From Trebouxia sp. TZW2008 (Eukaryota; Chlorophyta; Trebouxiophyceae; Trebouxiales; Trebouxiaceae), in the NCBI GenBank assembly GCA_002118135.1, contig BDIU01000256.1:290623-354622 (forward strand): a DNA stretch of 64,000 nt, in the 5' to 3' direction. Below the pieces are notes generated by a model. The model saw only the letters and a list, made by a program, of their open reading frames with translations, was not told where the DNA came from and did no database searches. Positions 2,712 to 63,500 of the stretch are shown one piece after another; the first letter of the stretch is position 1; every line of letters starts with the position of its first letter. The position numbers and the translations under genes were made by a program.

Positions 2712-5700
2712 TCAGGTAGGCCTGGAGGTCTTGCTGCTAAAGGGTGGCATCTTGCCTTGCTTAGCAAGCGTTTCCACTAGCTGCGCTTCTTTGCCACACA
2801 CCGCCTTATCTGTACAATGGCACCGATGCCGTACCTGCAAGACAATACAGATGCGTCGTCTCACATACTTTTTCACAGTGGCTTCCATCAAGGCCTTAGG
2901 GTGGCATCTTGTCTTGCTCAGCAAGCTTTTCCACTAGCCTCTTTGCCACACACTGCTTTATATCTGCAATGGCATCGATCTCGCAACTGCAAGAGAACAC
3001 AGGTGCATTGTTTCACAAACAATTTCTACTCATAAAAGCTCCCATTACAGGATTTAGCGTGACCTTGCTTAGCAAGCGTCTCCACTAGCTGCGCTTCTTG
3101 CCACACACCGCCTTATCTGTGCAAGGACATTGATGCCGTACCTGCAAGACAACAGGAGAGGCTTGTGACCCTCGCTGCTGCTACGCACCGAGGGTCAAAT
3201 TATGATGCCAATATGTCTAGGCTGTGGTTCACTTTCAAGGTGACGTATCCTGTCAGCTGGCGCTGCAACTATTCCAGATAAGCAGACACTGTGCTCAATT
3301 CATAACCCACAGCAGAGAATGTGAGGCTTGCGATTGGAGGCTTGACACCTTCTTGATCCACTTTGCAGTTCTGGAGGAAATCCTCCAGCCTTGTAACTGT
3401 GTGTATACGTTGCAGGGTGTAGTGTTGGTTTATCTGAGTGTGCTGTTGTAGCAGTACTTGTGATTACCCTTATAAAAGTGTATGTGTGGCCCGAGTAGTC
3501 AATTACGTATATACCTGGATGGCTGGCTCAAGATGTTGGCAGGGTCGGTAGCCCATGCCTAGCTCCAGGGGGCGGCTGCTGTACCATTCATTCAAGTCCT
3601 GATCAGGCGCCATCACCCCAACTGGCTCCCCAACCTGCGCATATCAAGTCTGTGGACTCAGGGTTGGATCAGGGTCAAGCATGTTCGATCTGTCATGCTC
3701 ATAACTGGCCGGCATTTGACAACTGTCAAGAGACAGCTGCTGTACGATCTGTCAAGTCTCAATCAGGGGCCACTACCCCCACTGCCTCCCCAACCTGAAC
3801 ACAGTGACAACAAATTCCTTGAAAATCCTGTGATGTATATAGCTGCTGCAGAGTTTCATGCTCATGACTGGTCGGCATTTGACAAATGTCAAGAGGCAGC
3901 TGCTGAACCACTCATTCAAGTCCTGATCAGGCGCCATTACCCCTACTGTCTCTTCAACCTAAACACAGCAACTTCTGTTGATTTGAGTTTTGATCAGGCG
4001 CCCTGACATGCACAAAGAACACAAAACTTATTCTTTGTCCCTGTCAAAGGCCATCTCCTTTGCTGCCTGCCTAAACAACACATTGAAGAGACATAGAGGC
4101 GGCTGCTGCACCACTCATTCAAGTCCTGATCAGGCGCCATCACCCCCACTGCCTCCCCAACCTGAACACATTGATAACAAGTTCCTTGAAGTCATGCGAT
4201 GTATGTGGTGGCTGCAGACTTTGAGCAGCGTGTATGCAGGTCGCAGGCTGGTGACTCATGCCTGGCTCCAGGGGCGGCTGCTGAACCACTCATTCAGGTC
4301 CTGATCAGGTGAGAACACCCCCACTGGTTCTTTGCCAAAACCATTGTGAATATCATGATTACCATGTGATTTGGTTTTTTGTTCCTCTCTCATCAAAATT
4401 GCATCTGACATTGTCATGCTGGCCACTTCAACAGATGTCCACCTGAAAGGCTTGTCGATCTCGCATGGCCCATTTGGTTGTTTGTTCCTCCTTCATCAAT
4501 ATTGTGATTGACATTGTCATAGTGCCCACTTCAAGAGATGTCTACCTGGAAGGCTTTTCGATCTCGCATGGCCCATATGTTAGTGTTGTGGCCAAAGGCG
4601 CCTCGGAAGCTCTTAGGGTGCAGGTCCTCAGGGATCTGTGCACAGCCTGCCCAATGCCTGCATCAAGAAGAAGAGCGCATTCACCAGAATGTTGCAAATA
4701 TTGGCTTGAAAGTGGGGCGCAAATCCTCTGAGATGTGTGCATGCCCACTGATTGGCTGCATGATTCAGAACAAGACAGCATGCGACCAACTACAGTCCAT
4801 GGACGTGCTGAAGTTCACCAAAGGTCCCTTGGAAGCTCTTAGGGTGCAGGTCCTCAGGGATTTGCGCACCGCCTGCCCATTGCCTGCGTAAGAAGCAGAG
4901 TCAGCTTGCCCTACACATCAGACCTGAAAGAGATGGCAAAGGATATAAGTACTTAGTGCTTCCTGAGGTGCAGTGGGAAGTTGGGGACCTTTGCGGGTTC
5001 AGACAGCCTGGGCAACAGGGCGGGAATCTGGAACAGCAGATTTGAAAACGTGCGCTGCGCTGTGATGCTGCTGGCATTTGAGCGCGTAAATGCCGCACTG
5101 AAAGACAGGCACAGCAGTATTTCTGATGATGCTGAACAATGGTTTACAGGAAGCAGATCCCAACATGCTTTCACAGCACAGCACAACGCAGCTTTGATGT
5201 TGCAGCCTCACAGATCCTGCTTGCAAATCTGTTCAGGCTGAGGACATCCAGTGCTCTTCTCCTCCAGCACAGCACAGTGTCTTCTTTCATGACTTACGGG
5301 CATTGCTTTGGAAGCTGCGTTAGACCATCCAGTCATCGATGCAGCACATCATAGCGCAGCACAGTACAGCCTCTAGCATTGTTAGGGTTGGTGCATCCGT
5401 CCGCAGCATGGAGGCAGCACAGCACAGCACAGCACAGCACAGCACGGCAGAGCCAAGTAAAGCGCAGCACAGCGTGATGCAAAGCAATACAACTTACGAA
5501 CAATGCTTCAGCAGCTGTTCAGACTTGGGACAACCAGAGCTGTTCTTTTTCAGCATGAACGCCGCACAGCACAGCACGGCACGGCACGGCACGCCACGGC
5601 ACAGCACAGCACTGCACTGCAGAGCAGAACAAAACGCAGCACAGAATGATGCAAAGCAATATGACTTACAAATGTTGTTTCAGAAGCTGTTCAGTCTTGG

Positions 5701-8700
5701 GACATCCAAAATTTTCTTCTTCAGCATGGACACAGCACAGCACAGCACGGCAGAGCAAAGCGCAGCACAGCGCAACGTGAAGCAGGATGACTTACGGGTA
5801 CTGCTTCAGAAGCTGTTCAGGCTTGGGACATCCAGTGTTCTTCTTCTCCAGCATGGATGCAGCATCAGTCAGATCATGTTGAATGTTATCATCACTGACT
5901 TCCTCCAAGGGGCCAATCTCTCCCGTCCAATTAGGTAATTGTAGTAATGGTGACCTGGCGTGGCCGTCATGGACGTGAAGGATCGTGTAGCGCTGTTCAA
6001 GAAGGGAAGACAGCATGGCGGGAAGATCAGCCAGTTCCCGCCATTTGTTGTTGATTTCCCATGCTCCAGGAGTGTACTCCATGACAACATGGTCAATCCT
6101 GTGACACATAACAGTCCAACTTGGTAAAACCAAAGATTCTTGAGCAAAGCTGTGCAGCAGATAGCTAGGGATCATGTAATGTGAGGGTACATGGCTTTGT
6201 AAGCAATTCAAGAGGTTACAAGTGTTGCATCGAGCAATTGGGGGTATGTGAGACCAGGTCAGCGTGATGCAAAACACACTCTACAAAGGACATCCATCTT
6301 CTGAGCTTGACCTTGTATGCACTGGCAAACTTTAGCAACCATGTGAAATAGCGCTTTGGGCTAATCCAAATGTTGCAGCAAACAGAGACAACATCACAGG
6401 GGAAAGACAAGATGTGTCTGTTTGGCTGTATAGCAGATCTATAGCTTACCAAATTGCACAAAAAGCCATCGTTCACTGCAGCAAGCAACACAGTTGCAAC
6501 ATGGGTCCATGGATCCAGCTGAGATATACTTACTGGTAATCTGCAAACACATCCTCTGCAGACTCTATGACGCCTGGCTCAAAACCCTCGACATCAACCT
6601 TGAGCAGCAACACATCTTCATGCACCACTTCGTCTATCCTTTCTCCCATTGCACGCACTATCTCTAGCTCGTTCCATTCCTCTTCAGCGTAGGCACGACT
6701 GCAGGAAGTAAAGAGCAAGTCAGATTGTGAATCTTGAGCAGCAATACATGTTTTTGCAGCATTCTGTCTATCCTCTCTCCCATAGCATAATAACAATAAT
6801 ACAAGCTTACACTTTCCAGCACATGTGCTAGGTGTGTGTGGCCTAAGTCCTATCCTGCCAGGCCGGCTTGTTTTGAGCGTCACGGTCAGGACGGTTGATG
6901 TTCAACATGCAACATCCCATAGCATGCACTATCTCTAGCTGGTTCCATGTCTGTTCAGTACAAGCACGGCTGGACAACAGAAAGCATGTTCACATTAACC
7001 ATGAGCAGCAACACATCCTCATGCACCACCTCGTCTACCCTTTCCTGTTCATGCTGAGCCCGCCGTCCCAGGCACATCTGAAATAGCATTTTGGGCATGC
7101 AATAAGCAGCATCTCAGCAGCTGATGTTCAGATTTGAAGCCCTGACCTGTCAATGTTGAGGCCGCCGATTCCAGCTGTGCCCCAGATGCCCTTTGACGGC
7201 ACCTTCAAATCATATGTCACTCCACTGATATCTGCCACTGCCGTGTCGCGAATCTCAATGAGGTGTTCAAGGCGGTTCAGCTGCCTGTTGTATTCAAGGA
7301 ATGCTCTGAATTGTGGTATGGGTTCCCAGGTGATAACTCTGCACGCATTTGGACATTTTTTCATGCTGGCGCTGCAAAGACAAGAGTGGCGGTTGTACTC
7401 CAGAAATGCTCTCAACTGAGGTATTTGCTCCCAGGCGATCACCCTGCATTGTGCAGTGCTTCTGCTCCTCAGGGTAGCAATTGGGGGGCATGACTTGCAC
7501 ATCCACAGATTGTGGATTGGTTGCGTGAGGTAGACTTTCCTTTTCTGATGGCTGTGTGTCAACTGCTACAGCAATGGTTTCAATGAGATGTTACTTTCTA
7601 ATTCTGCATGGAGCTCATGCTACGAAGAGCAACCCTGACTAGATGTTTGATTCTGTCCATAAGCATATGCCAGTCAACTGCAATGACACAAGCGATACGC
7701 TGTAGAAGATATCAGTGTAATGCAATGGATGTAATGCAACAGCCAAAATACTGGTACAATTCTCACCTGCAACACAGTTTAGCTGCATGAAAGCTGTACC
7801 AGCCAAAGTTACCACCAACATCAGGAAGCTCATTTCAAGACACATCAAATCATCGCGTGGACAAATAGCTGAACGTGCAGCAAATGTCCAAGGGTGTCTC
7901 ATGCAACCCAACTTCAGCGCGCCAATAGTGTAGGAACTTTTTGTCTGAAAGGTTTTGCGCTGCAGCCATAAGGTTGTTAGGTGTCTCACCTGCAACCCAG
8001 TGTAGCCGCATATATGCTATACCAGCCAAAGTTACCACCCACATCTAGCACCAGCCGTCGTGACCCATCAGGCTTTATACACTTGTCTCTAAGCGCTTGA
8101 TACCACATCATTGTCAGTCCAAGCTCAACAACCCCTCCAAACTCCATTTGCCCACTGACGTCCACATCTTTTTGGGGATCTGTGTATGCCATGCTGAAAG
8201 AAGGCACCGTGCTTGTGTTCTTCACAAAGACATCAATCTGCAGCATCAGACTGATGTCAAGGTCGTTTTAGGCATTGTTGTATGCCATGCTGAAAAGGCA
8301 CCGTATCTGTGTTGTTCACAAAGACATCAGGCTGCAATCAGACTGCATTGCGCATCTTTCTGGGGTTCTGTGTAAGCCATGCTCAAAGAAGGCACCGCGC
8401 TTGTGTTCATCACCAATTCACAAACGCATCAATCTGCAGCATCAGACTGCTGGGACAGAAGCGGCATTGTGTTGCAATTGCTACCTAATGCTATGAATGA
8501 TGGTCTTGTTTTCACGCACATCACTCTGCACAAACAGACTAATGTGCTAGGAGTCAGCATTGTGGTGCCTTGTGCTTGCATGCCTCACCTAAACATATGC
8601 TGAAGCATTGGAATATTGTCACCACATGGGGTGTATGTGTGACAAGGCTCTGAAAGCATGCTGATCGTAGATCAAGTCATTATTGTTTCAGAAACACATT

Positions 8701-10755: not shown

Positions 10756-11705
10756 GCTTTGCAGGCAAGATCACTGCGTACTTGTCAGCAGACCGGAATT
10801 TGGTCGACCGCTATCAGATCAGCTCAAGCAGAAAACATGTGGGAGCGGAAGCATTGCGTGCTTTTGTCTCTAGTTGGTCGGCAGCAGGGCGCAAATGACG
10901 ACTTTCAAAATTCTGGTCGTACCTCGTCAAAAGTCGCGAAAATAGCTCGAAACATCCCTTCTTCTTCTTCTTCATACCGTACATTGAGCAGCAATTCTTC
11001 AAGGCTTGAGATCTGGCACTGTGACTTAACTGCAGCAGGTGGTCCTGCAGTCACAGCTCGTGAGTATGTTGATGCGCTGCGGCTTTGGTTAAGACACAAG
11101 CTGTGATTGCTTCAAAAAGTCCAAAAACTTGATGCGCATTAAAGATGACATTTCAGCTCACTACAGAGACCGCTGCAGATCTGGACAACTCAGGCATCTC
11201 CCGCAAAGATTGTACAGATTAAGAGTTGCATGTGCTGGTTGCATGACGCAAAGCCTCCAGTACAGCCTGCAGTGCGCCACTGCAAGGCAAACAACGCATG
11301 TCAAGTTGATAGATCATAACTTACAAGGATTTGCTACCCCAGATGCTTATGTACACTGCCTTTGCAGCTGAGCACTGTCCTTGGGCGCCTCAAAATGATC
11401 TCAGCGGTTTTGCTGCACGATGAACACTATTGCTTTTGAACTTTCTATTGACACTCAGTGATCGACACTGGGATTCTTCTTCTTTCTCTGTCAGCCAACT
11501 GGTCAGCACACAAGCAGCGCAGCTCGGACACAACAAACAAGCTGGACAAGCGTCTGCCGATGCTGACATCCTCCAATCCGAGTTGAAACTGCAAGTTGAT
11601 CGAGTTGCATCGCTTGGGATAATCCAAGAGAGTTTCTGTTTATAGCGCCGCTCCTGTCGCATCCCTGCTGGCCAGGCTGCTCATAAGGTCCTGAGCCAGA
11701 CAGGA
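10756..11705. promoter_or_regulatory. Divergent intergenic region, probable bidirectional promoter
   Basis: This 950-bp stretch lies between two start codons that point away from each other. It must hold both promoters and 5' UTRs. Short open frames occur (for example 11034-11106 on the plus strand) but without family motifs or convincing splice borders. The assignment is by position only; no TATA box or known element was recognised. Confidence 0.45.
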
Positions 11706-12466
11706 ATGACAAAAAAGAGGAAAGCTGAGCTTGACCTAGACGTGGAGCGCAATCTACACTCAAGCTTTGTCACAGCTGCCAACTCTATCTCGCATCTTTT
11801 CACCCAAGCAATTCAGCAAAACAAGAAGGCTCAAGCTGCAGGAGCGCAGCAGGCTCTGGTGAGCTTGATGCGCGGAATATGCGCTTGTTTAGGACTGTTT
11901 TGTATCTCGTTGTCGAGTGTGCTCAGTCTTGCTACCTGCTCCGTTCTGAGCGTGCAAGGGGCTCGCTGCTTCAAAAATGCTGCTTCACTGCAGGAGCGCC
12001 AGATTGGCTGGTTGCTGAAGGAGTACGGCAATGCGCAGTACATCCCAATGAATGTGCTGCTAGCGCATTTGCAGCAGGAAATACAGGTGAGGTCCACATT
12101 GAGTGCATGCTCTGGCATTGCTTGCGTTTGCACCAATTTTGTGACATAGTTGCTGAAAGTTGCACTTGCCTGCAGCACGCGGATGCTTTGGATGTGCAGC
12201 AGCCTTCAATAGCTGGCTTTGCTGGAGCAGCACCAGGGTATGAAGCAATGGCTAGTGATGGTTCTCCTGGCGACCACTCACAGCAGAAGCTCATCCGGCA
12301 CACTTTCCCGCATCACTTGAGCCCTGCAAAGCGGCAAGCAAACACATCACCGACCTTGTATCATATGGACCAAGAGGCAGCAATGACTCCAGCCTATACA
12401 GGACAAGACCATAGTGCAGCACACTTATTTGGCTCCAACAATGGTCAGTCACGCACATTTGGGTAG
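11706..12466 (+). CDS. Small conserved plant/algal nuclear-type protein
   Basis: Three exons (11706-11858, 11994-12086, 12176-12466), all joined in phase 0, give 178 residues. The N-terminus begins MTKKRKAELD and continues with FVTAANSISHLFTQAIQQ, a pattern I remember from a short plant protein family of unknown function that has AANSLSQLYTQ in the same place. The second exon, with YGNAQYIPMNVLLAHLQQEI, matches that family's helical second half. The third exon is hydrophilic and probably disordered, rich in Ser, Gln and His, ending in FG. The basic KKRK at residues 3-6 could serve nuclear import. The ATG was chosen because it opens the conserved motif. No biochemical role is known to me; calling it nuclear is an inference. 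Confidence 0.8.
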
Positions 12467-15511: not shown

Positions 15512-15901
15512 CTGCATGCATACATAACATACATACATACATACATACATAATATCGCATATTAGTTTGGCTCAAAGGCCTTGCTGTGTACGTATCGTCA
15601 CCAATCGACTGTCTTTCAGCAACCATGCCTGCATCATCACCAAAATCTGTTACAATACAACATGTGATCAATTGATGCTACCAGGCTAGGCTTCACTTGC
15701 CTGTGGGCCACCCTGTTGCAACATCAGTGTGTATCTTCTGTTATAGAGACCCAACATGGTATCATACAGACAATGTCAGGGTATGAGGCTTTCATTCTGT
15801 TGCGTAAGGACTGCCAAGCTTGTTGTGTCCATGCCCCGAGATTGGTACTGTCATCACTGCATGGTAGCATTGTTGTCAGCCAGGGGAACTGCACTTAAGA
15901 A

Positions 15902-28985: not shown

Positions 28986-29017
<32 letters not shown>

Positions 29018-45300: not shown

Positions 45301-48081
45301 GCAGGTTGACACAAGCGCTTGACCTGCTTGGTCATAATGCGCATCATGGCATCTGCAGACCGTCTTTGCAAGTGCTCAGTCCACCCAGCCTGTGCTTGCT
45401 CTTGTCTGGTTTTACCCATGTGATGCTCCCCTGGTGATCCCACATCAGTTGCGTTTCTGATGCTGTTCAGCTTTCAAGCTTGTATGCCATGACATGTCTG
45501 CTGTCACAAGGGGGTTTCAAGATAGAGGAGCAGGCAATTGTCAGCGCTTCATATCTGCAGCAACTAATTGCTATAGAGCCGTATGTAAACAGAGACTGTT
45601 TTACTGAAAAGTCAGCTGCCCATAAGGTTTTGCTCTAGCACCCCCAATTGAATTCCTGTGTCTGATTTGCAGGCAGCAGCTTTGCATGGAGCAAGTACAC
45701 AGACTCACAAGCAGACAATCTGGTGCCCATTGAGATTGCGCTACGCATTGTGTATGCCATTGAGCACGATGAGCGCTTTGCGGCCTACCTGGTCATTCCT
45801 CTTCATCCCGAGAGGCCAGGACCTCAGAGAAGTTCCATCTTGCTCTACACTTGGCACACTATTGCCATGATGTACAGGTCAGCTCAAATAGTTCATTTTG
45901 ATGCTGATGTGAGGCAAAACCCTGAGCACTCTCACACTGCTGATGTCTTGCCAGCAGCACCATGCACACTTGCAGACTAATGTGAGATGCAGTCTATCCA
46001 GGGCAATCTGCAGAGCACAAAATCCAACTCAGCCAACACATCAGCTTGTTGCAAGCTCCCAATCAGTCTGCCGAAGCTGCGCAGTCGCGCTTTGCACTAT
46101 CCCACTGCAAAGCTGCATCTTTTGGCGTGCCACTGAAAGTGTCTGTGCATTTGTGCAGGGTAATTGGAGAGGCTCTGCAGCGCAGGGGTGACCCAAACGC
46201 GCACCCTTCAGACTACCTCAACTTCTACTGCCTGGCCAACAGACAGAAGCCCTCTGGCGCAAACATTGAGCGCAACTCTGGGGCTGAGAAGGCTGGCGCT
46301 TCACCAGACAAGAGCTTCATCCACATTCATGCCAAGGTGGGATTGCCATTTCTCCTTCATGTCATTAGCCCTCGCTGCACCCCCCTCTTCCCCTATCAAA
46401 CCCCACTTGTGCATGTCTGTCCGGTTGTTGTTTGCCCCTCCTGGTCACTCCCTTTTCTCACATGTGACCTCCTCCTCCAGTATTGCCCTCCCTGTATACC
46501 CCTTCCCCTCAACAGCATTGTCATCCACATTCACAAGCACATTGCTAATATGATTAGGGACTGTTAAGCATGAGGGTGATTTGTACGCCGCTGTTTGTGA
46601 TGGCTCACTGCATATATTGTTCCTTTCTAGGATGCTGAAACTTACTTGATATTGTCTGTAGACCATCATTCAAGATGATGAGTATGTCAGCATCAGCTCA
46701 GCCAACCTGAATCAGCGCTCTCTGGACGGCCAGAGGGATACCGAACTGGGCATGGGTGCATGGCAGCCCGCGCACACCTTGGCCACTGCCAGCAGCAACC
46801 AGTCTGCTGGTGGCACAAATAATGGGAGTGGTCAGCATGGTGGTGGCGTTGCCACTGGAAGCAGTCCAAACAGCACTGGTGGTGCTGGTGGGGATTACAG
46901 CAACAGCCAACAGGGTGGAAATGCCCAATATGGCGGTGGTAGTGCCAATGGAGACTACAGCAACAGCCAATACAGTGGTGGCAATGCCCAATATGGCAGT
47001 GGCAATGCCCAGTATGGCAGTGGCAATGCCCAGTATGGCATTGGCAACACCAATGGAGGCTACAGCAGTGCCCAATTTGGCGGCGGCAACACCCATTATG
47101 GCAGTGGCAATGCTGATGGAGGCTACAGCAATGGCCAGAACAACAATGGCAATGTCGCTAATGGGCCTGGCGGCGCTCAACACCTTAATGGCGTCAGCCA
47201 CAATCAATATGGCAACAGCTCGTACTCAAACGGGGCAGCCAATGCTGGCACACAAGGGCACAGTCAGTATACACAGCCAGGTGGAGTGTCTCACAACCAG
47301 GAAGATCAAAGCGGTTTGCAAGGCGCAGGGCACACGAAAGGCACTTGGCAGCCTGGGGTTGACAGTCAGAGGGCAGGGCAGCAGGGGCAGAGGGCAGGCT
47401 GGGACCAGCCCCATGACCAAAGGGCAGATTGGGACCAGCCTCAGAGGCAGCCCGAAGAGCAAGGGCAGAGAGGGGGCAGTGGCCCTGGCCAGTCCAGCAT
47501 GCAAGATCACAGGCGGGGAACTCCTGCACTTTGCCTATTTCTTTGTCAATCCTATACATGACCATCTTCTGCAGGACAAAATCCCAGCTTGCCGGCATAG
47601 GATGCACCAAACACCAGCACGAAATCCCAGAATGTCAGCATACCTATGAACAATAAGCCTTGTACATTCTTGCCAAAGACATCAAATGTCTGCAGCTTGC
47701 TCTTTATGTTCTCTCATCTCTAGGTGCCACGACTTTGTGTGCAGGGAAGGTCAAGAGGCTAAAGTACCTTATCCCAAGGGGGAAGTGTATGGCTACCGCA
47801 TGGCGCTGTGGCTTGAGCACTTGGGTGGGAAATATGACCCTGTCTATGACCAGCCTCACAGCTTGGCTTGTGTGAAGCAAGTCAACTATCTGGCGGAACA
47901 AAATTGGTTGCAGTTCTCAGGGGAAGAGGACTGTGACATGACAGGTCATCTCATCACATTCCCTTGTGTTGTTGATAAGAGTGGGGCTATCACTCCTCGC
48001 ACCAAGGATGGACACTTTTCCGATATTGACAATGACATCCAGGGAAAAAAGCGTCCAATTCCAGCCATGTTTGTCAACTGA
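39304..48081 (+). CDS. PLD: C2-domain phospholipase D (plant type)
   Basis: Hydrolyses phosphatidylcholine and related lipids to phosphatidic acid, a membrane signal. Exons: 39304-39505, 39695-39846, 40097-40333, 41642-41876, 42269-42432, 42690-42795, 43662-43799, 44113-44260, 44806-44984, 45673-45877, 46159-46336, 46662 to about 47491 or 47512, and 47724-48081; about 1043 codons, all phases consistent. An N-terminal C2-like domain (about residues 1-190) is followed by both catalytic HKD motifs: HHQKTMLVDQD in exon 6 and HIHAKTIIQDDEYVSIS across exons 11-12. AHMVYIENQF-type sequence (HMVYIENQFFTG), NLVPIEIALRI and GHLITFP are also typical. Odd: exon 12 runs on for some 250 low-complexity residues between the QPAHT and YGYRMALWLEHLG segments, which are nearly adjacent in land-plant enzymes. 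The donor of exon 12 is uncertain (GT at 47492 or a GC donor at 47513). Confidence 0.92.
40950..41690 (+). repeat. Seven tandem copies of phospholipase D exon 4 acceptor and start
   Basis: Copies begin at 40950, 41062, 41174, 41288, 41400, 41515 and 41642 (real exon). Each keeps TTGCAG followed by codons for DAHCGADLEHS or close variants. Spacing is 112-127 bp. Confidence 0.9.
42105..42190 (+). repeat. Decayed copy of phospholipase D exon 5 start
   Basis: Repeats the codons for GVRVNIIIWDEI as GVRINIIKQDEI in the intron before exon 5. Confidence 0.75.
43300..43661 (+). repeat. Two echo copies of phospholipase D exon 7
   Basis: Copies near 43315-43430 and 43470-43595 encode versions of YDTCAHKPGGRRYEEGTMPW; the real exon starts at 43662. 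Confidence 0.85.
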
Positions 48082-52000: not shown

Positions 52001-55000
52001 TTAGGAAGTCATTGTTGACACCGCCGTGCTCATAGTCATGGATGGCTGCGGCTATGTAGCAGGCCAGCATCATGAGCTCATCACACACCTTGCGGCGCAG
52101 AAGACCTCCATGGTGCATGATCATGTGCATCATTTGCACCACGCTGGCAACGTGCAGACTGCAAGCAGAGCACAAGATTATGCCAAGGACTGATGGAGCT
52201 CAAAGAGTGCACTTAAACAACGCAAGCGTGTTGCCAATGTGTGTTGCAGCACATTCATAGACTTATTAAGGGAAGTACAGCATACTCCGGATTTTCAGAT
52301 GAACATGTCTGATATGAAGACATTGACATTGTAGAGAAAATGCAATGAGGCCCCAGTTACTGCATACCAATTGCTGTGGTGCTGCCGAGCAAGAACACCA
52401 CAATGCAAGGACAAGTTGCTTGTGAACCAGCAAAGTGGTTACAGTAACACATTGTACATACAAGTACACTTTCAGCACACTTGACTTTCCATCACCTGCT
52501 GTGGTAGGGGTTGTTCAGGTAGCCCCTCTCAATGCGGCACAGGTATCTGGACAGCTTGACTTCATTCAGGTTGAACCGGTGAATGAGACCAGTAGACTTG
52601 ATGTAGTGGAAGGTCAGCACAGACAGATGATTGCCACTGGTCTCTTCAGCAAAGGCAAACATGTTGAACTGCCAGCTCCTTTCCGACTCCTGCAAAGTCA
52701 AATCTGCCAGGCTGAAGGCATGCATAACAGCTGTTTGGGGTGAATTTTGGGAAAGGAAACTATCAAGGGCAATTTAATGACATCAAGTCCCTGGCAGCTC
52801 GCATGCACTGTGCATTGTGGCAACTTCATGCATAGCTACAGCATCACACCGCAGACAGGATTCATTGAGCCGCGTGAGTACAGCATACCAGAGTCAGCAA
52901 TCCCACACAGACACGCATGTCTTGCTACAGTGCAGGACTACAATGCACGCTGACTTGCGGAGCCGACAGGTTGCTCTTGTACTTATACAGCAGGGTTCTG
53001 ATTCCTGCCAAGCATCAACAAGAGGAACAACAGCCTGATCAGGCGGGGAGGCACAAGAAGAAGGACGGCAATATACCTGCAGCATGCGCTCCACCTGTAG
53101 CGTGATGCTAGAGGTGATGCCAAAGTCCAGCTCCTTGTCAAAGGAGGTCTCACTAGTGATGGAGCTGGTGCTGACCATGCTGCTGCGGCGTGCCCTAGAC
53201 CGACTGTATGTCTCCTGAACCCCTGCTGGGCTTCCAGGGGGGTCAGCACCCCCACTGCTGCTGCTTAGGAGAGCCTCTGACCTGGTAGTGTTGCCCTGTG
53301 AAGAAGAGAAATAGTTTACACATTACAAGCCAGTGCAAATGGTCAGCACAGCCTCAAGCCTGTGGGGTTGCCGGAACCATGCTGGGCTGCCAGAGGCGTC
53401 AGCCCCACCTTGCTGCTGCTTGTCACAGCCTGTGACTAATGCTCTGTGACTGAGCAGGTGGTCGGCACAGTGATTTGAGGCAGTCATGTGCAGCTGAGCC
53501 TGAGGTGCTGAAACTTGATCAGATCAACACTAGCATCAATCTGCACAGTCCAGTCAGGGAGCTTTACCTTCAGCAGCTGAAACATGGCCAGGCCCATGTC
53601 AGCATCAATGTCACTGTCCTCCATGAGCTGTTGCAATTGCTGAATAAGACTGCTTGTTCAGCTTCTGTTGCACAATTCACGCTGAGCAGCTGCACCATGG
53701 CCAAACCCACATCAGCATCAATGTGACTATCCTCCATGAGCTGTTGCAGTTGCTGAGCAAGACTTCTTGTTTGGTTTCTGTTGCACAGCTTATCTTGAGC
53801 AGCTGAAGCATTGCCAGGCTGACATCAATATCATTGTCCTCCAGGAGTTGCTGCAGTTGCTAAATACCACTGCATGTACCCAGCATCCATAGACTGGGCC
53901 AGTCTCTTACCTTGAGCAGCTGAGCCATTACTGGGCCGACACCAGCATCAATGTCACTGTCCTCTATGAGCTGCTGCAATTCCTGAGTAAATCTGCTTGT
54001 TCAGTTTCTGTTGCAGAACCTACCTTGAGCTGCTGCTTCTGCCTGATATCATCAGCAACAGCAGAGGCTGCTGACATTGATCATGATCAAGTCAGCCTCT
54101 TCATTGCAGCTCACCTTGAGCAGCTGAACCATGGCTAGGCCCACATCAGCATCAACGTCACTGTCCTTCATGAGCTGCTGCAGTTGCTCAATACCACTGC
54201 TTGTACTCAGCATCCATAGACTGAGCCAGCCTCTTCAGTAGTGCTTACCTTGAGCAGCTGAACCATGGCCAAGCCGACATCAGCATCAATGTCACTGTCC
54301 TCCATGAGCTGCTCCTCCAGGCTGACTGGCTGCCGCAGATCCACATTGGCTTGGCTGAGTAGGTGGAACAGCTGCACTGTCTCCTCATTGTCTGGCGTCC
54401 TGCCCTGCAGTCGAGTAAATGGCATTGATCACAACAGTCAAGAGAGGGGATGGCCCCATTGAGCAGGTGTAACAGGTGCACAGTCTCCTCATTGTCCAGA
54501 TCCCTGCCCTGCAATGAGATAAAGAGCAGCATTGTGGTTTGTGCTAGTGTCAGAGCCAGCAACCTATCATTTGCTTCACCGCCCTGCAGTCAGGCGGGAT
54601 GGGATAGCTTGACTGAGCAGGTGGAAGAACTGCACTGTTTCCTTGCTGTCTGGCGTCCTGCCCTGCAGTCAGACAAAATGGAGTGACACTGACAGCGGCA
54701 CTGTCTGTTCATTGCCCACTGTCTGATCCTGCAATGTCGTGTCATCGCCTGCTGGCCAGCCCTTCAGTGGGAGAGACGAGATTTCCGACAGCAAATCTGG
54801 CGTGAAAGCTGCACTGCTTCTTCATTGTCCTGTGCTCTGCTCTACAATCAGCCAAAGAGAGTCAGTCACGGCTGCATTGGACTCAACAGCTGCACAGACG
54901 CTTTTCTGTCCTGGAGTCAAACGGAATGGATTGGCCTGGCCCAGCAAGTGAAACAGCTGCATTGTCTCCTCACCATTTGGCGTCCTGCCCTGCTTTCAGA

Positions 55001-58000
55001 CAGAGAAGTTCAGTCACAGCAGTGTTGAGTCAACAGCTGCACATTTATTTTTCTGCCCTGGAGTCCGGCAGAATGGACTGGCTCGGCTGAGCAGGTGAAA
55101 CAGCTGCACTGTGTCCTTGTTATCTGGCATCCTGCCCTGCAATTAGAAAAAGAGGATCAGTTACAGCAGCATTGCAAGAAGAAACCATGTTGAGTCAAAA
55201 GGTAAGCAGCTGCTCCACAGTGTTTTTGCAGTCGAGCAAGATGAAGCGGCTTGGCTGAGCAGGTGGAAAAGCTGTACTGTCTCCTCATTGTCTGGCATCC
55301 TGCCCTGCAGTTGGTGACAACTTAGGTACCAATGATGATAAATCAATGAGAAAAGCATGAGATCCAATAGCAGTACAAGCACACAAATTGAACCAACATA
55401 CTTGTGTTGCCGCTTCAGGTGGTATAGTTCTCAGGTCTTGTATCATCCCTACAGTTCAGGTTCTTTGCAAAAAGTGTATACAGGTTTGGCTGTCCTGTAT
55501 CCAGTATACAGAACGTATGCAGCCCGAGGGTCTTGTCAATAGGCATGCCACATTGACTCTTAGTGGCTCATTCAAACATGCATGTATCTAGCCAGATACT
55601 GGGCTGACCATGATGAGACCCTGCAGCAGGTCTAGGGTCTTGTCAATGGGCGTTTGCCCATCAAACTGGTGACTGGGCAGCTTCTCATTCACTACCGCCT
55701 CCAGCCGTTCAACCAGGCTTGTGTTCTGCTGCTGCAGGTTGTCCTTCTCCTCCTGAATTGTGGCATTGTAAGACTCCAGCTGCTGCTTCTGCTCTTCCAA
55801 AAGCTGCAACTGCCTGCAGGCAGCGTCATTGCTTAGGCATTGCTGTGCAAGAGTACCTTCCAATCTGTATGACGCCAAAACTACTTGCAGTAGCCTGTCT
55901 TGTATCTTCTGGACATTAGTAATGCACGACTCCAGCCATAAATTGAGATCTACATGTCAAAACAGTCAACACTTGCGAGCAATACAGTATGCTTGATGCA
56001 AATGCAACACTAGCTTGCATATTAACCATTTATTGTTCCAACATGCAGCGCTGGACCTGCTTAGCTGCAATGACAGATGCCATTGTCACATGACAAGATG
56101 GCTTGCAACGTTTCCACTGCCCTGTTCTATGCTGAACATGTAGACAATCATGTAACAAATTGGCTACTTGCCTGGCCAGCTCCTGTTTCTGCAGTAGCAG
56201 CTCAGCCTGCATCTGCTTCTGCTGGGTCACATTGTACAGCTTGACCAAAACTGCTGGCCGACCATCCACAGGATCCTGCAGGACATGCGGCATTTCTTGG
56301 CTTCAATGACATGATCGTTGCATGCCATTAACAAATCATACTGATATGATCATCACATGCCATCAACACATCATTTGCAGCTGCTGACATGTGTTGCGAC
56401 GGGACTGCTGGGAGTGAACCCAAAAACTGACGGCAGCACCAACAGGTGATATCAAACATGCAGATATTTGACAGGCAATGAGGATGTATATCACTGGCAG
56501 GACTGATGAATAGCACGCAGCTTGAGAGGAGGAGTAACAATTGTTTTCCCTTTGGCCTTCAAGCGCATCATCAGCATAGGCGTTGCACATTCAATGAGCG
56601 GCTTCACTGGAGCAAAGCCATCAGTAGAGCCCACACTGATTGGGAAAGCACATCAAGGTGGGCCACAATGCAAACAGAGCACACTTGATCTGCTCTCCCA
56701 ACTTATATGAGACAGGGCGTACGTTGATGGGCCACATTTCAAAGAGGGTCCAGCGGGCTTTGTCTGGGTGCTTGCGGCTGGTGTTCGGCATGGAGAACCG
56801 GTGCACCTCTTCTTTGCGCTCAAAGATGACATTCATAGCCTCCTCAAAGGCAGCTTCAGGTGTTGTCCCCAGATCTGATGCAACAGCATCAGCATGTTTG
56901 GCATTTACGACAGCGGGCAGGCCAAGTCAGGACCGTGATTTCATTGTGACGGGCTCCTTCAAAATAGCTGCTATGATACCAGCCAAAGTGAAAGCTGCAT
57001 TTGCAAAATAAGACACAGGGGCAGCTTTAGGCATCATGGCCAGAATGGTTGTCACGGAGACAACATGTGAGGGATGTTCCACTATGTCATATACTGCATG
57101 GTTATCTTGGACTGACGGGCATGTGGTCATTGCCATTATGGGGCACATGTGGTAAGCTTTGTTGACTGGCTGAAGCATTTAAATATCTTCTGCATGTTCA
57201 GAGTTCAGGCTTGCAAGAAGGCAAAGTTGAGGCCGCAGCTGGAAAGCTAGGACAGTAGAAGGACCAGACTGAAGATATGTGTGCTAACCAACAGGCAAGA
57301 CGCACCAACAGGCCGGCAAAACAAACACTGTGCCAAATCAAGCATGCTCAGCATGCTTTGGGCGCAAGCTACTGGGCAGCGCAACTGTGCAGCTCTTGTG
57401 CGTGAACTTTGATGCCTGATTGATGATACTATGCCTGAGCAGGCCAGTTCAAGCGCAAGATCCACAAATCACCCTTTTGTACCGCATCAAATAAAGACAT
57501 GTGCGATACGTTCCGTACTGCTCAAGGCATGCTGACATGTGGGCAAGAGAATGACTTGCCTAGCATGCTCCAGAATTGTAACAGGCATAAATAGCCATGA
57601 TGCTATCAAAGGGAAGTAGTCAAATAGTAGTTGTGTTTACAGCGTAGGGGCGTACCTGTGTAGATGCCTTGCTGGAACAAGTCCAACAAACAGATGTCCC
57701 TGCCATTGTCTGCAGCAGCAACACTAGTGTCATGCTCAGCTCTGCTTGAAAAGCTTGTCATGTATATTGCATGACATTGTATCTTGCTTGACGTTGTATG
57801 TTGCTTATGCTTTGAAAGCATGTCTTGTCTGTGACAGGATTTGGGGATCGAGCTTTTGACACACATGAATGAACGACACATCTCATGTCACTACTGTAGT
57901 GAGTGGTGATGCATTGCTTGCTAAAGGATGTAGTCACAAAGTGCAGATCAGGAGCTATTGCGGTGCTGCAATGAGTGCATCTCATATGGGTAATCATGTG

Positions 58001-60263
58001 TTGGCATTGTAAAGCTGTCACGATGCAATCATGGCAGCCAAAAGACATTTACAAGAGATTTCCTGTTGCGCTAATTGTGGGAGCTATGACTGTGCTGTGT
58101 CAGAACAATGATAGCACCCAAGCAAGGTAAAGAGGCTCATGCATGGAATGACATGCAGGAGGCTCACTCAGGTGGTTGTAGCGCTCTCTGCCTCTCCTGT
58201 TGGCCATCAGCAGCCGGCCAGTGTTGGAGAACATGAAGGTGTGAATGGGCGCCACATGGTTGATAGCAGCCAGGCGAGCAGACTCCTCTGAGGCAACATG
58301 TTCCAGCTGCGTCATGTGGCATTTCTCCACAACACCAGGAGACGTCTCAACTTTCAGCGCCTGCATGATCAGCAGCCAACCGATGTTGAAGAGTTTGAAA
58401 GGTGTGAATGGGCGCCACATGGTTGATGGCAGCCAGGCGAGCACACTCCTCTGATGCAACTTGTTCCAGCTGCATCATGTGGCATTTCTCCACATCACCA
58501 GGAGACGTCTCAACCTTCAGCGCCTGCATGATCAGCAACCAGACAATATCAAGGCCCATGAAGATTTGTATAAACAATGATTTGGTCGATGGCTGCCAAG
58601 CGCGCAGACTCCTCTGAGGCAATCTGTTCCAGCTGAGTCATGTGGCGTTTCTCCACAACACCAGGGGAGGTCTCAACTCTGAGTGCCTGTGTCATCAGCA
58701 GCTGACTCAAACATGTTGCACAGTAGAGTTGTGCAACAGTCTGCTTGAATGTAAGCATGGGAGAAGTACTTGTCTGCTTTTAGAGCAGCATTGGCATATA
58801 CGCAAGTCATCATTTAGGCACAGGAGTGGACATGAAGCATACAAGCAGCAAGGGCATGGCCAGAGCTGTCTTGTGCAGCAGGCCTCTGCAGCCCGACTAG
58901 TAACCCTGTGCCATGGGTGGGTCTTTCGGCAGAATGTAGGAGTCGGTTGATGCCTTAAGAACAGCACAAGCTAGTCAGCTCACACGCAATTGCGAAGGCA
59001 CAGGTCATGCATCAGGTAACTATATGCAATGTGTGTTTCTCCTCAAACTGCATTTGCATTTGCAGAGAGTTAAGAGATGCTTGGTCTTGCATTTGTGCAT
59101 ACTGCTTGCAAGTCACCAAGCTGTTGAGACTGCAGCTGCTGTAAATGTCCCTCAACTGCATAGCTGCGATATATAAGTGTTGCATTGTCACAAGCCGGCG
59201 ACAGGCAGGCGGGTTATTGTCCTTCGGGGACCTAGTCATGAAGACGCCAGACTATATCATGTTTGACACGGAGTGTGGGTTTGGCAGGGCCTTGCATGAG
59301 TTCTGTGCAAATGCACATTTGCAAACTGACTTCAGTGTTACCTGCTGCAACAGGGTGAGATGCTGGTGTTTGGCAGAGATGCCCTCAAAGACAGGACCCA
59401 GCAAGCTCTGTGCCTGTACCCATGTCCTGTGCACAGTCCCCTGCACAAAGTGAGAGCCTCAACCAACAGCCATGACTGCTCATAGTATGTTGTGCCATCT
59501 TGTGCTGAGCTGCTTTGGGCTAAGCGATGCTGAGCTGTGCCAACAAAGACATCTCGTTTGACACAAAAAGCTTGACACAAGTCTGAAGCAAAACATTCAC
59601 CAGAACTGCCAAGTAATGACAGTGTTGATTGCTGTCTGCCTATTCTGTTCAAAAATCTTCAGACAATTATAACATCAGCAATGCGTGAGTTCTGGCCTAT
59701 CGTGTCAGGAGAATTAACGCATTGCAGTTCAGCAAAGGCATGAGCTGAGCAAAGCTTGATTGCTTGTGCTTACTGCAAGGAGCTGTTTCACAAGCTCTCT
59801 GCGGTTTTGCTTTTCTGGCAGACTTTGACTATCCAGCTGCGCTCTGATGTCTTCTTTGGAGCGGAAAGCCCCAAGGCTTTGCTTACATGCCTGATTCTGA
59901 TAGATTGGGCGGACAAAGTTGACAAAGCCATCAGGACTGCGCAGCGCCAGAAAACACCTTGTTTGTGTTGAGACTTTAGGGGACAAACACAGCAAGAAAA
60001 GGTAGCACTACCTGTTGGGATCGTCGCGTGACCCGGAAATGACGACCCATGATGGATTGCTGACTTTATTGAGCAGTTCGAAGCTGTCTAGCGCCCATAC
60101 CCGATCCTCGTCGTTTACTTGACAGCTGACGTCTCGCTCAGAGTAATGGTAAGGTCCACTAACGCCTGCACATTCTCAAAGCATAATTCAGGAGTCCAGC
60201 CTTGCGCTGCTTGCACCTCAACAACCTGTCAAGCCAAAACCTACCGGGGGACGAAAGGGGCAT
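49074..60263 (-). CDS. PAS-domain cyclic-nucleotide phosphodiesterase
   Basis: Hydrolyses cAMP and/or cGMP, ending cyclic-nucleotide signals. Eighteen exons, right to left: 60245-60263, 60012-60165, 59774-59936, 59342-59440, 58168-58360, 57656-57709, 56723-56874, 56172-56275, 55609-55813, 54249-54404, 53077-53295, 52496-52689, 51888-52158, 51528-51629, 50735-51001, 50113-50208, 49607-49687, 49074-49268; total 907 residues, all phases consistent. N-terminal PAS-like sequence (SFELLNKVSNPSWVVISGSR), then a clearer PAS domain (PIHTFMFSNTGRLLMANRRG through DPVDGRPAVLVKLYNVT), a coiled coil (exon 9), a Ser-rich linker, and from about residue 506 the PDEase domain. Metal and catalytic residues are visible: PYHSSLH, HDYEHGGVNN, ITYNDISPLENHH-like YNDISPLENHHLA and ALKCADIGHL. 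An 89-residue Ser/His-rich exon interrupts the catalytic domain. The first, 19-nt exon is inferred from phase and is the weakest call. Confidence 0.92.
51120..51233 (-). repeat. Decayed copy of phosphodiesterase exon 15
   Basis: NLFQRSTTTTSRSGSRELKE after CTGCAG parallels NTFQRRDTASSRSSSMELPD of exon 15 (50735-51001). Confidence 0.8.
53560..54248 (-). repeat. Echo copies of phosphodiesterase exon 10, 3' side
   Basis: Five copies of about 115-140 bp repeat codons for EDSDIDADVGLAMVQLLK and the donor in the intron after exon 10. Confidence 0.9.
54405..55320 (-). repeat. Echo copies of phosphodiesterase exon 10, 5' side
   Basis: Six copies of about 110-160 bp repeat CTGCAG plus codons for GRTPDNEETVQLFHLLSQ in the intron before exon 10. 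Confidence 0.9.
55814..56171 (-). other. Probable GC-AG intron in the phosphodiesterase gene
   Basis: The donor reads AG then GCAAGT, the usual form of GC donors. It gives phase 2 and joins ELAR to QLQLLEEQKQQLES without breaking the coiled coil. A GT two codons later would also be possible but does not match the next exon's phase as well. Confidence 0.6.
58361..58695 (-). repeat. Two echo copies of phosphodiesterase exon 5
   Basis: Copies near 58400-58528 and 58555-58692 encode close versions of exon 5 from ALKVETSPG to ESARLAAI; both keep long open frames. Confidence 0.9.
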
Positions 60264-60535: not shown

Positions 60536-63500
60536 ATGAATGCGGGGCTTGTTAGCGGAAGCAAGCTCGGTCTGGGCGTGGCATCTGCTGCTTGGGGACC
60601 TTCTGTGCTGGTCAGTAAGAAGCTGCTTCGATCTTGGGCGGTCAAAAGAGATTGGTGCAGGCCAAAGCAAATGCCAAACTTGCGTAGTAGCAGCAAAGCA
60701 CGTCAAACAGATCGGCTGGCTGCCGGCGTCAAGCTCATTTCCACTGAGATACAAGAGGAAGCTGTTGTAGCTGAGCCAGTCAAGCAAAGTCAGGCCAGTG
60801 CAGACCAACCTGCCAAGAAATCAGCAAACAAGAAAAGGAAAAGAGCTGTGCATCAAGCAGACGATGTCAAGGCCAGCCAAGCTGTAGCTGTACCTGTTTC
60901 AGCTGCCAGCATTGCAGTAGAACAGCCCGGACAAAAGCCAGCAGCTCCAGCAAAGAAAGCGAAGGCAAGAAAGGCATTGTTGACCACTCTGTGGACACAG
61001 GCTGATCTTGTGCCCCTGCGAGCCAAAGCTGAGCAGCTTTTCGACCAGCTGAATGAGCTATACACTGACCCTCCTTGCCCACTGAACTACGAGTCTCCAT
61101 TTCAGCTCCTTGTAGCAGTGATCCTGTCAGCTCAGGTAGCCCACTGCACACGTCAACAAGCCCAAGCCTGACAGGCAGCAGTGCCTCTTCACATCGAATC
61201 GTTTGTGATATCAACTGCGTATCTCTGCAAACTCCCTCTGTGTAAAAGCCTTTCACTGCAGATGCACACATCTGAGACTTGTACTGAGAATGCCTCTGTC
61301 ACTGTGAACGCTTGATGACATTTTCATTCAATAGTGGCCAACATCATCAGCCTGACCTCATGATCTGGGGAAGGAATGCATTGCGCCTATGTCTATGCTT
61401 GCTTCTTAGACTTTGGCCCTGAGCAGGCCCTTGCCTTCTTCACATTTTACGTGCTGTGCTGTTCCACTCACTGACTGATTGCCCTCATTGACTGACTGCA
61501 GACTGAGTGCCAAGCTGACTGATTGACTGACTGACTGATTGCTCTCATTGATTGACTGCACACTGACTGACTGAGTGACTGTATACTGACTGACTGACTG
61601 ACGGCACACTGACTGACTCATTGACTGCAGACAACAGACAAGAAGGTGAATGAGGTCACACCAGCGCTGTTCAAGCTTGCTCCAGATGCAGAGGCTATGG
61701 CTCACTTGGAGGTACTCGCTCAAGGCAGGTTTTGTGCCATACATAATACTCTGCCTGACCTTAAGATTTTGTATGAGCCAGACTCTGCAAGACTGAGGCT
61801 GTGTGTGAAACATCTTTGAAGTCAGGTTGGCAGTGCCAGTATCACTGTCACTGACAACATGGCAGTCGATACAAATGCCTTTTGCACACATGAAGGCACA
61901 CATATCTGAGATTGTGTGTGCAAGTGCTTGTAAAGACTGTCACTCCAGACATCACACATGAGGATCAACAAAACATGTGTGACTGTCGGAGATTGTTTCA
62001 TCTCAGCGTCTTGCAGCTTCCCGGCTTGGTTTTGAAGTTGCTTGCACGGCGCGGCAGGACTTTGTTGTGCACCGCCTATTTGGCGCCTCTCTGCATTCTT
62101 AACAAGCTATAAGGAGAATCTTGTCAATGTTTGTTAGGGAGAATAAAAGGCATGCGTCTGCATGTGTGCAGGCTGCTGAGGTGCAGGAGCTGATCAGGCA
62201 GGTTGGGCTGGCGCCCACCAAAGCCAGAAACATTGTCAACATGAGCAAGGTACATCAATGAAAGCTGTTTGGCACTTCACAACTGCTGTTGCTCACTGAC
62301 AGCCTGCAATGGCATTACACGTGTCTGAAGATGCATGTTGACTTCAGTGGACTGCGCTTTAGCTTGCAACAAATCCAGAACAGCCACACCTCAAAGTAGC
62401 CCGTTTTGCCAGTTGACTGTTGATTCATTGCATAAGGCAAGGTGTGGTGTCTGTTGTTCATCAGATGCTGATGATTTTTCATGTCAATCAATATTGACTG
62501 CAGAGATGTCACTCAATGCCAGTACGCACTGCACTCCCATTTGTGGATCAAAGGTGACAGCGACAGTGTATTTTGTAACATATGCTAATGGAGCAGCACC
62601 GCAGGGTTTAGGGTTTAGGAGCTTTAAGGAGCTTGAGCAGCCGTCAAGCAATGATAGCATAGGCTGAAACCCATTTGTTGACTGAATCAGTTTATTGACT
62701 GAAACCAAGAACAAAGCGTGATGTGTAACAGATGCTGATGGAGCAGCATGGCGGGACAGTGCCCGAGAGCTTTGAGGAGCTTGAGCAGCTGCCGGGTGTG
62801 GGACACAAGACAGCGAGTGTGGTCATCTGCACAGCCTTTGGGTACGCTGGCTGCTTGTGTCACTGTGAAGGCACAGCCTGTTTTCATGCCAAGATGCAAG
62901 ACTGCTGGTAGGAGACACAAGTTGCTAACTTTGTCATCTGCAAGCCTTTGTGTGCGCCGGCCGTCAGGCTCTTGATAATGAGGTGATGATGCGTATCTAT
63001 GCATCCAGTGTATGCCATTGCAAAGGCTCGTCCTGTGTTTATTGCGCTATGCGGCAAGACTGCTAGTGTGGTCATTTGTACAGCTGTTGGGCTTGCTGCT
63101 GCTTGCGCCACCGCAAAACCACACCTTGTCTTTGATTGCATGATACAGGATTGCTAATGTGATTGTCTGCACAGCTTATGAGTATATTGGCCGCTTGCAC
63201 ATGCAAGTGCAACAGCACAACGTTTTCTCATTCTGCTTTGCAAGACTGTGCCATTGTGAGACACAGGACTGCAAGTGTATTTGTCGGTGCTGTTAGTGTT
63301 GTCATCCGTACAGCAGTTGGGTATGCTGCACCCCGATGACACAATCCCTCGTCATGTAGATCTGGATACAGATAGATTTGGATATAGACAGATATGCAGT
63401 AAGTGTTGACAAGCACAAATCACATTGCACAGGCTGACAGACTTGACATGCTGTGCGGCAGGACACCCACATTTCCAGTGGACACACATATTCACAGACT

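Follow-up and report, generated by a model that had tools for sequence, protein, structure and literature searches.

Decayed tandem copies of exon edges in the introns of a Trebouxia genome

Introns of the lichen-forming green alga Trebouxia sp. TZW2008 contain tandem copies ("echoes") of the edge of the exon that they abut, splice site included, and these are very probably the decayed products of DNA-level tandem duplications that spanned splice junctions, the extra copies having been tolerated and left to decay neutrally. The copies are local, tandem, two-sided and side-specific, and their exon part decays in a neutral-like fashion. The units may have been made by unequal exchange or replication slippage, and the apparent excess of arrays at exon edges would reflect where such duplications form or persist.

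Self-BLAST of the window (the whole 64-kb stretch of DNA that was analysed) gave 70 forward repeat pairs, 60 of which lie within 3 kb, and five inverted pairs, so the detected repetition is nearly all local and tandem. Scoring an edge echo as a match of at least 20 between an exon edge and the abutting intron, we find 17 exon edges with an echo (Table 1); the initial annotation's "more than 15 such exons" is thus reached as edges, which lie on 14 modelled exons. Where the initial annotation counted at least six genes, the edges belong here to two homology-based genes modelled from Trebouxia orthologues, encoding a phospholipase D (PLD; three edges) and a cyclic-nucleotide phosphodiesterase (PDE; four edges), and to two ab initio models, an Omp85-domain gene (28744-35206; two edges) and a 20-kb minus-strand model (4028-23905; eight edges) that is probably a fusion of several genes. 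The Omp85-domain gene has no homology-based model because a PDB search gave just two weak matches; a radial-spoke protein 3 gene was found through PDB searching, and an Rfam search returned no matches. Each window edge has one to seven intronic copies, about 5-28% diverged from their own exon.

Table 1. Echo arrays, source exons and other repeats in the window (fractions are identical positions between copy and exon)
Feature	Position	Strand	Details
Array with no exon edge assigned	2741-3154
Donor-side echo, ab initio exon 4546-4657	4443..4485	-	38/43
Acceptor-side echo, ab initio exon 4546-4657	4827..4883	-	52/57
Three donor-side echoes, ab initio exon 5796-6098	5217..5728	-	45/53, 46/54, 47/53
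Acceptor-side echo, ab initio exon 6534-6698	6915..6968	-	44/54; the open frame around the exon has an FkbM methyltransferase domain (Pfam PF05050)
Acceptor-side echo, ab initio exon 7147-7338	7387..7442	-	43/56
Donor-side echo, ab initio exon 7990-8237	7767..7822	-	48/56
Two acceptor-side echoes, ab initio exon 7990-8237	8279..8416	-	47/51, 45/50
Four donor-side echoes, exon 22628-22763 (model ab initio only)	22020..22549	-	23/25, 56/60, 57/60, 56/59
Array adjoining coding-like segment 27505-27678	27081-27510
Donor-side echo, ab initio exon 31852-32051 (Omp85-domain gene model)	32188..32247	+	44/60
Two acceptor-side echoes, ab initio exon 34719-34947 (Omp85 domain, Pfam PF01103)	34370..34526	+	33/35, 47/58
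Array with no exon edge assigned	36049-36400
Six acceptor-side copies, PLD exon 41642-41876	40950..41555	+	acceptor plus first 36-54 nt of exon; spacing 112-115 bp, within intron 40334-41641; 37/49 to 39/41; AG retained in 6/6
Functional PLD exon whose edge the six echoes copy	41642..41876	+	spliced alignment to Trebouxia proteins P0001 and P0002
Single acceptor-side echo, PLD exon 42269-42432, intron 41877-42268	42125..42166	+	31/42
Acceptor-side echoes, PLD exon 43662-43799, intron 42796-43661	43317..43532	+	two strong copies, 43317-43373 (44/56) and 43473-43532 (51/60); a weaker third further upstream
PLD Gly/Asn/Gln-rich coding tandem repeat, in-exon, not an echo	46790..47171	+
PDE exon 11	53077..53295	-	5' edge has one echo, 53392-53436 (35/45)
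Six donor-side echoes, 3' end of PDE exon 54249-54404, intron 53296-54248	53501..54174	-	36/50 to 55/60; GT retained in 4/6
Functional PDE exon 10, echoes on both sides	54249..54404	-	modelled by spliced alignment with P0128; 748/915 identical across the gene
Seven acceptor-side echoes, PDE exon 54249-54404, intron 54405-55608	54460..55304	-	26/34 to 53/57; one is just 23 nt
Two acceptor-side echoes, PDE exon 58168-58360	58464..58686	-	57/60, 53/60; unit 163 bp, exon share 155
Array with no exon edge assigned	62565-63155

Four further contigs of the same genome show the same pattern. Echoes were counted in two sets of gene models: set A holds nine homology-based genes with 111 introns and 222 exon edges, and set B holds 152 ab initio introns with 304 edges from 18 of 48 ab initio models, those excluded being models that overlapped set-A genes, had fewer than four exons, scored below 10 or were retroelement-like on C1. 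An SGNH-hydrolase alignment (257/429 identical) was too uncertain for set A, and an ab initio model that covers it is in set B. The abutting intron carries an echo at 24/222 edges in set A and 33/304 in set B, compared with 2/204 and 7/268 for introns on the wrong side (Fisher P = 9e-6 and 1e-4, respectively), and comparison of edges with other genes' introns gave no match at threshold in 21,312 (set A) and 42,808 (set B) trials. Tandem echoes of exon edges are thereby confirmed against both controls, and intron-to-own-exon matches are far above intron-to-other-exon matches, the test that the initial annotation had proposed. Its description of copies on both sides of exons, crossing splice junctions and lengthening introns, is likewise supported. 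Echoes occur at 15/111 acceptor and 9/111 donor edges in set A and at 20/152 and 13/152, respectively, in set B.

Across both sets 52 of 263 introns, or about one in five of those sampled, bear an echo, and detected copies make up 7,481 of the 43,031 intron bases of set A (7,648 on recount), so to call the introns "built from" echoes was too strong. By intron length, the set-A copy share is 54% of bases at 700 nt or more and nil below 150 nt. Of 26 set-A introns with self-matches, three have no echo among them: in Noc2 intron 3 and PDE intron 15 one exon matches another, and in BUD13 intron 2 the match comes from a repeat internal to an exon. A permissive recount of the 111 introns gave 24 with an echo, none with an intronic array only and three with exon-to-exon matches; strict BLAST cut-offs had missed one pair, in BRO1 intron 7. 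The duplication unit has a median of 157 bp, and 67 of 70 clusters fall between 90 and 240 bp. A single near inverted pair in 244 kb rules out an inverted or palindromic structure. That the copies are an introner-like mobile element or an assembly artefact is barely conceivable: cross-gene comparisons revealed no dispersed copies, genome searches with two array regions (in one assembly, and such searches can miss matches) returned the home locus only, the divergence of the window copies is unlike that of an assembly duplication, and we found no point in favor of either.

Mismatches between copy and exon run at 0.194, 0.150 and 0.274 for the three codon positions (10 arrays), which comes near the ratio of 1.25:1.1:1.9 expected of a neutral copy under assumed exon rates, and the exon part of the copies has 42 indels per 626 mismatches, of which 10/42 are multiples of three; together these rule out coding selection on the copies. 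Splice dinucleotides are retained in 42/53 copies, or 43/51 aligned copies, which exceeds the 0.68 retention of exon dinucleotides (P = 0.007) and could suggest that the copies are still in use, as alternative exons or as tandem exons of ancient origin. Against our own estimate of 0.74, which allows change in the copy lineage only, the excess gives P = 0.06, and both the spread of mismatches over codon positions and the occurrence of indels that are not multiples of three resemble neutral change. Two transcript-like proteins bear on the same point. P0110 is identical to the Noc2 model at 717/717 aligned residues and comes from a 2,714-nt contig, and P0133 matches Nup85 at 720/720 on a 2,640-nt contig; both contigs are much shorter than the genomic spans, so they appear to derive from spliced RNA. 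Neither protein includes any copy from 12 echo-bearing introns, as the initial annotation's reading would have it for these two checkable cases, and the junction used is the exon-contiguous one. We therefore think it very unlikely that the copies serve as exons. The initial annotation had supposed that either the outermost or the innermost copy stays functional; the exon-contiguous copy does so, and there is no sign of an outermost copy in use.

A duplication spanning a junction would account for these features as follows: an acceptor-side unit would convert X|E1-E2 into X|E1 X|E1-E2, and a donor-side unit would do the mirror image. The exon-contiguous copy would stay coding and hold the working splice site, and because it does, the protein would be unchanged and the duplication tolerated. 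The surplus copy would turn into intron and decay as neutral sequence, and repeated rounds at one junction would lengthen the intron and build arrays with as many as eight copies. The order of copies by similarity fits simple outward stacking from the exon poorly; it is mixed, and an age order along the array was rejected. Also rejected was the idea that, when the copies arose, the introns lacked the length for a unit lying entirely within them; Nup85 intron 12, for example, retains about 280 nt outside its copy.

Two features go beyond a simple neutral model, namely the rarity of wholly intronic arrays and the poor preservation of the copies' intron flanks. Wholly intronic arrays are 6/53 of those detected in genes (5/53 on recount), and the permissive recount of 244 kb gave 48 exon-touching clusters, five intronic, 16 outside models and one in-exon cluster. 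One of the 47 exon-touching clusters of the first count (BUD13) is mostly exon-internal, and several include entire short ab initio exons, which may be mispredicted echoes. Random duplication was simulated with 65/70 of the unit lengths, array-free introns as ancestors and assumed exon rates of 0.25/0.10/0.90, each run having one duplication, although multiple copies are common in the real arrays. The simulated share of wholly intronic arrays among those detected in genes is 33-49%, which puts the deficit at P = 3e-4 for 33% and 7e-9 for 49%. In an intron-only search of set A, 14 of 15 introns with a self-match also carry an edge echo (score 18), and the remaining one has an exon-derived copy under permissive search; some, such as Nup85 intron 6, have an intron-only pair distinct from the echo. 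As to the flanks, mean z is about 1.9 for intron sequence 20-60 nt away from the junction (23 of the 24 set-A echo edges), the first 40 nt of exon in the copies have a mean identity of about 0.83, and flank similarity is lower than in simulations, likewise of one duplication each, that use the indel ratio observed on the copies. Both features might stem from duplication bias, from gene conversion or from ascertainment.

The edge excess could be only apparent, if duplications are random and purifying selection together with faster decay of pure intron leaves the junction-spanning ones visible, and we give this a substantial chance, somewhat short of even. A slowly evolving functional exon makes the exon part of a pair diverge more slowly; a high indel rate in simulation loses pure-intron pairs quickly (at t 0.20 and an indel/substitution ratio of 0.4, 36 straddling arrays were detected by their edge and 13 were intronic); and the intron-only search of set B found 13/31 without an edge echo, near the simple-model expectation. 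However, the copies themselves show 0.067 indels per mismatch, which in the simulations is equivalent to a rate near 0.09 rather than 0.4, and at 0.09 between 39 and 49% of detected arrays should be intronic, compared with the 6/53 observed and at most 1/15 in set A alone (P = 0.003).

Alternatively, edge copies might be kept similar by gene conversion, or by repeated copying, with the conserved exon as template, so that exon-containing arrays outlive pure-intron ones. Copy-copy mismatch exceeds copy-exon mismatch in the exon parts of 9/10 arrays, and some copies match the exon at about 0.9 identity yet show hardly any similarity, or none, upstream; but a slow exon source by itself explains part of this and the indel ratio is neutral-like, and we regard conversion as doubtful. 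Similarly improbable, in our judgment, is a junction-directed duplication process, with a unit near nucleosome size, that prefers exon edges over intron interiors, is a major lengthener of introns at a distance from the 5' ends of genes and evolved separately in amphioxus; its cause might possibly be nucleosome-phased replication or transcription at exons.

To our knowledge, intron lengthening is poorly explained outside transposon insertion. About a fifth of the introns sampled here show visible remains of duplications of their own junctions, in a lineage far from amphioxus, and the process can therefore be dated, counted and tested across Trebouxia. Long-read genomes of Trebouxia are already published (PMC11523091, PMC12712428). 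Annotators should also be warned that echo splice sites, acceptors and donors alike, lie next to genuine exons and can readily mislead gene prediction.

Among known systems, introners also are introns shaped by duplicated DNA, going by the excerpted account (PMC9860276), but the Trebouxia copies match their own locus only, with no dispersed family seen. Intron gain by duplication of exonic AGGT segments (the Rogers model) shares with the present case tandem duplication and duplicated AG/GT signals, both of which do occur here; as an explanation it is nonetheless most unlikely, since the units examined hold a pre-existing junction with some intron flank, the introns are each provided with a separate donor and acceptor, and a new intron position is not needed. 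In potato RdRp, again from an excerpt, a tandem duplication crossing an intron-exon boundary gave a new intron that recruited a cryptic donor (PMC4974935), whereas in Trebouxia an existing intron is lengthened and the exon unchanged. The initial annotation held a two-sided pattern of this kind to be undescribed, which does not stand, as excerpts of two reports describe amphioxus "mirages" (PMC3087553, PMC3902484), tandem repeats that span 5' and 3' exon-intron boundaries in the globin, Adh, troponin C and PGBD5 genes. The mirage units reported in those excerpts are 10-160 bp long (150-160 bp in BflGb6, 157 bp in BflGb9), with AG/GT on many but not all copies, regular splicing reported as undisturbed, copy-number polymorphism or somatic instability, and concerted evolution within the cluster of one gene. 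The Trebouxia echoes resemble mirages so described in spanning boundaries on both the acceptor and donor sides, in their short unit (although longer at its upper end) and in keeping AG/GT in many but not all copies. They differ in occurring in a green alga rather than a cephalochordate, in affecting 52/263 sampled introns rather than the handful of genes named for amphioxus in the excerpts, in not being homogenized among themselves (9/10 arrays), and in an apparent surplus of exon-edge arrays relative to wholly intronic ones. Measured against those excerpts, the structure itself is already known, and what is new is the organism and the scale, with many genes affected at once.

Trebouxia is a frequent green-algal partner in lichens, and the genome that contains the window comprises 68.5 Mb in 527 contigs. 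Exons were placed with a purpose-written spliced protein-to-DNA aligner fed with Trebouxia or other close homologues, which were obtained from one phospholipase D (PLD) search and from two further ones that used chimeric queries assembled from exon translations. Judged by identity to a rough query, the proteins nearest to the PLD of the window were those of Trebouxia sp. C0005 (78%) and C0010 (75%), which places the organism in Trebouxia. The resulting set A holds nine genes with 111 introns (median 346 nt): PLD and a cyclic-nucleotide phosphodiesterase in the window, and Noc2, Nup85, BRO1, IFT122, BUD13, ketoacyl-CoA synthase and 14-3-3 on contigs C1, C120 and C300. Set A then served to train an ab initio gene finder, which gave set B, 18 models with 152 introns. 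In leave-one-out trials the finder recovered 83/102 internal exons exactly at one setting and 73/102 at a stricter one; set B was predicted at an intermediate setting, and its models are less certain.

Do introns resemble the exon edges that they abut more than other edges? For each edge 60 nt of exon were aligned locally, and a score of at least 20 was counted as a match. The comparison of own with other exons that the initial annotation had proposed came out in favor of own edges: in set A, 15/111 acceptor edges matched their upstream intron and 9/111 donor edges their downstream intron, and there were no matches to introns of other genes (0/21,312) or to non-adjacent introns of the same gene (0/2,700). 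Matches to the intron at the exon's other end (the wrong side) numbered 0/102 and 2/102. Set B gave 20/152 and 13/152 on the right side, 3/134 and 4/134 on the wrong side, 8/2,560 elsewhere in the same gene and 0/42,808 in other genes; some of its wrong-side and same-gene matches come from short exons, possibly mispredicted echoes (decayed tandem copies of an exon edge with its splice site). Fisher tests comparing the two sides gave P = 9 × 10⁻⁶ (set A), 1 × 10⁻⁴ (set B) and 5 × 10⁻⁹ (both), which supports the proposed duplication across splice junctions. At a score of 18, echoes are present in 23/111 set-A and 29/152 set-B introns.

The tandem echoes first noticed in the window are real and extend to other contigs; within the window, 14 modelled exons bear a total of 17 echoed edges. 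Self-BLAST of the window gave 70 forward pairs (60 within 3 kb) and five inverted pairs, four of the latter arising from microsatellites (Table). Across 244 kb there is one near inverted pair and there are 70 tandem clusters. Of these, 47 are in contact with a modelled exon, 6 fall entirely inside introns, 16 are located outside the models and 1 is confined to an exon; recounting at a permissive BLAST cut-off gave 48, 5, 16 and 1. The minimum offset per cluster has a median of 157 bp and is 90-240 bp in 67/70 clusters. That introns are "built from" echoes was an overstatement, since detected copies hold 7,481 of 43,031 set-A intron bases (7,648 on recount); the share is 54% in introns of at least 700 nt and zero in the 16 introns shorter than 150 nt. 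Genome searches with the PLD and phosphodiesterase array regions, which can miss matches, returned only the home loci. The three arrays tied to no modelled exon may belong to unmodelled genes.

Table. Features of the window and of contig C1
Position	Feature	Detail
Window 2741-3154	Tandem array	Unit 150-183 bp; tied to no modelled exon
Window 27985-28088 and 61466-61627	Tetranucleotide microsatellites	AGTC and ACTG
Window 36049-36400	Tandem array	Unit 150-183 bp; tied to no modelled exon
Window 39485-39694	Intron starting with GC	
Window 41642	PLD exon	Six upstream copies of acceptor and first 36-54 nt; spacing 112-115 bp
Window 46790-47171	In-exon tandem repeat	Gly/Asn/Gln-rich; near PLD C terminus
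Window 54249-54404	Phosphodiesterase exon	Seven echo copies upstream, six downstream
Window 62565-63155	Tandem array	Unit 150-183 bp; tied to no modelled exon
C1 ~26.7-32.3 kb (loci L002-L003)	Open frames resembling Ty3/gypsy-type retroelement with chromodomain	Named by reading the sequence

Several other features of these genes were observed. The PLD stretch that holds the in-exon repeat diverges widely among Trebouxia orthologues, and the second exon of BUD13 (C300) contains an internal coding repeat, offset by 117 and 193 nt. Set-A introns that interrupt the first 300 nt of coding sequence have a median length of only 79 nt (n = 16), and echoes are absent from all of them; medians in later bins are 319-535 nt (Spearman 0.42, P = 4 × 10⁻⁶). 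GC replaces GT at the start of 10/111 set-A introns, a high GC-AG share if the models are right. The ketoacyl-CoA synthase homologues P0246 and P0247 bear the source names "Protein Nef" and "Ataxin 2-like"; because the contig of that gene also has an open frame that by reading resembles an ataxin-2 segment, the gene models may be fused or misnamed.

Copy-to-exon mismatch by codon position was 0.194/0.150/0.274 in 10 arrays and 0.148/0.116/0.242 in 53 copies, and about 1.25:1.1:1.9 is expected of neutral copies under assumed exon rates of 0.25/0.10/0.90. The exon part of the copies has 42 indels (1-6 nt; 10/42 multiples of three) per 626 mismatches. Splice dinucleotides are retained in 42/53 copies, or 43/51 aligned copies, an excess with P = 0.007 when compared with all exon dinucleotides and P = 0.06 under a fairer expectation. 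We conclude from these alignments that the copies decay like intron and that splice signals are retained weakly at most.

Which copy is used? Protein P0110 is identical to the Noc2 model at 717/717 aligned residues (it has 807, and the aligned stretch stops before the remainder) and P0133 to the Nup85 model at 720/720. Their source contigs, 2,714 and 2,640 nt, are far shorter than the genomic spans, from which we infer that both derive from spliced RNA; the "lgn" tag of the source presumably denotes a public assembly of sequencing runs. At 12 echo-bearing introns of these two genes the proteins reflect the exon-contiguous junction and include no copy.

Simulated random duplication, with observed unit lengths, introns of observed lengths and four parameter settings for age and indel rate, made 33-49% of detected genic arrays wholly intronic, compared with 6/53 observed (5/53 on recount). 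With exons removed before the search, 15/111 set-A introns match themselves (shuffled, 0/111); at a score of 18 an edge echo accompanies 14 of these, and in the remaining one a permissive search detects a copy derived from an exon. In set B only 18/31 self-matching introns have an edge echo, near the simple-model expectation. Over 23 set-A edges, the intron flank 20-60 nt from the junction has a mean z of ~1.9 and the first 40 nt of exon an average identity of ~0.83; simulated flanks gave z of 4.9-7.2 at exon identity 0.80-0.85 and an indel/substitution rate of 0.12, and approached the observed value only with much higher indel rates (the measured ratio is ~0.07). Both departures could reflect exon-biased units, gene conversion anchored in the exon, or the loss of intron parts.

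The pattern had been thought undescribed, wrongly, as amphioxus "mirages", tandem repeats that span exon-intron boundaries, precede it (PMC3087553). A paper on lancelet PGBD5 reports further cases and cites troponin C (PMC3902484), and one on potato describes a single acceptor-spanning duplication that produced a new intron (PMC4974935). The main text of the Trebouxia genome papers PMC11523091 and PMC12712428 and of the Asterochloris paper PMC6652019 contains neither "tandem" nor "exon", and the inspected "intron" passages are silent on such structures. On this comparison the Trebouxia structures are mirages in a green alga. In 9/10 arrays the copies resemble one another no more than they resemble the exon; they thus lack the homogenization seen in one amphioxus gene, which lies outside the definition of a mirage as we understand it. 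The new content is the scale, together with the side-specific statistics and an apparent bias toward exon edges.
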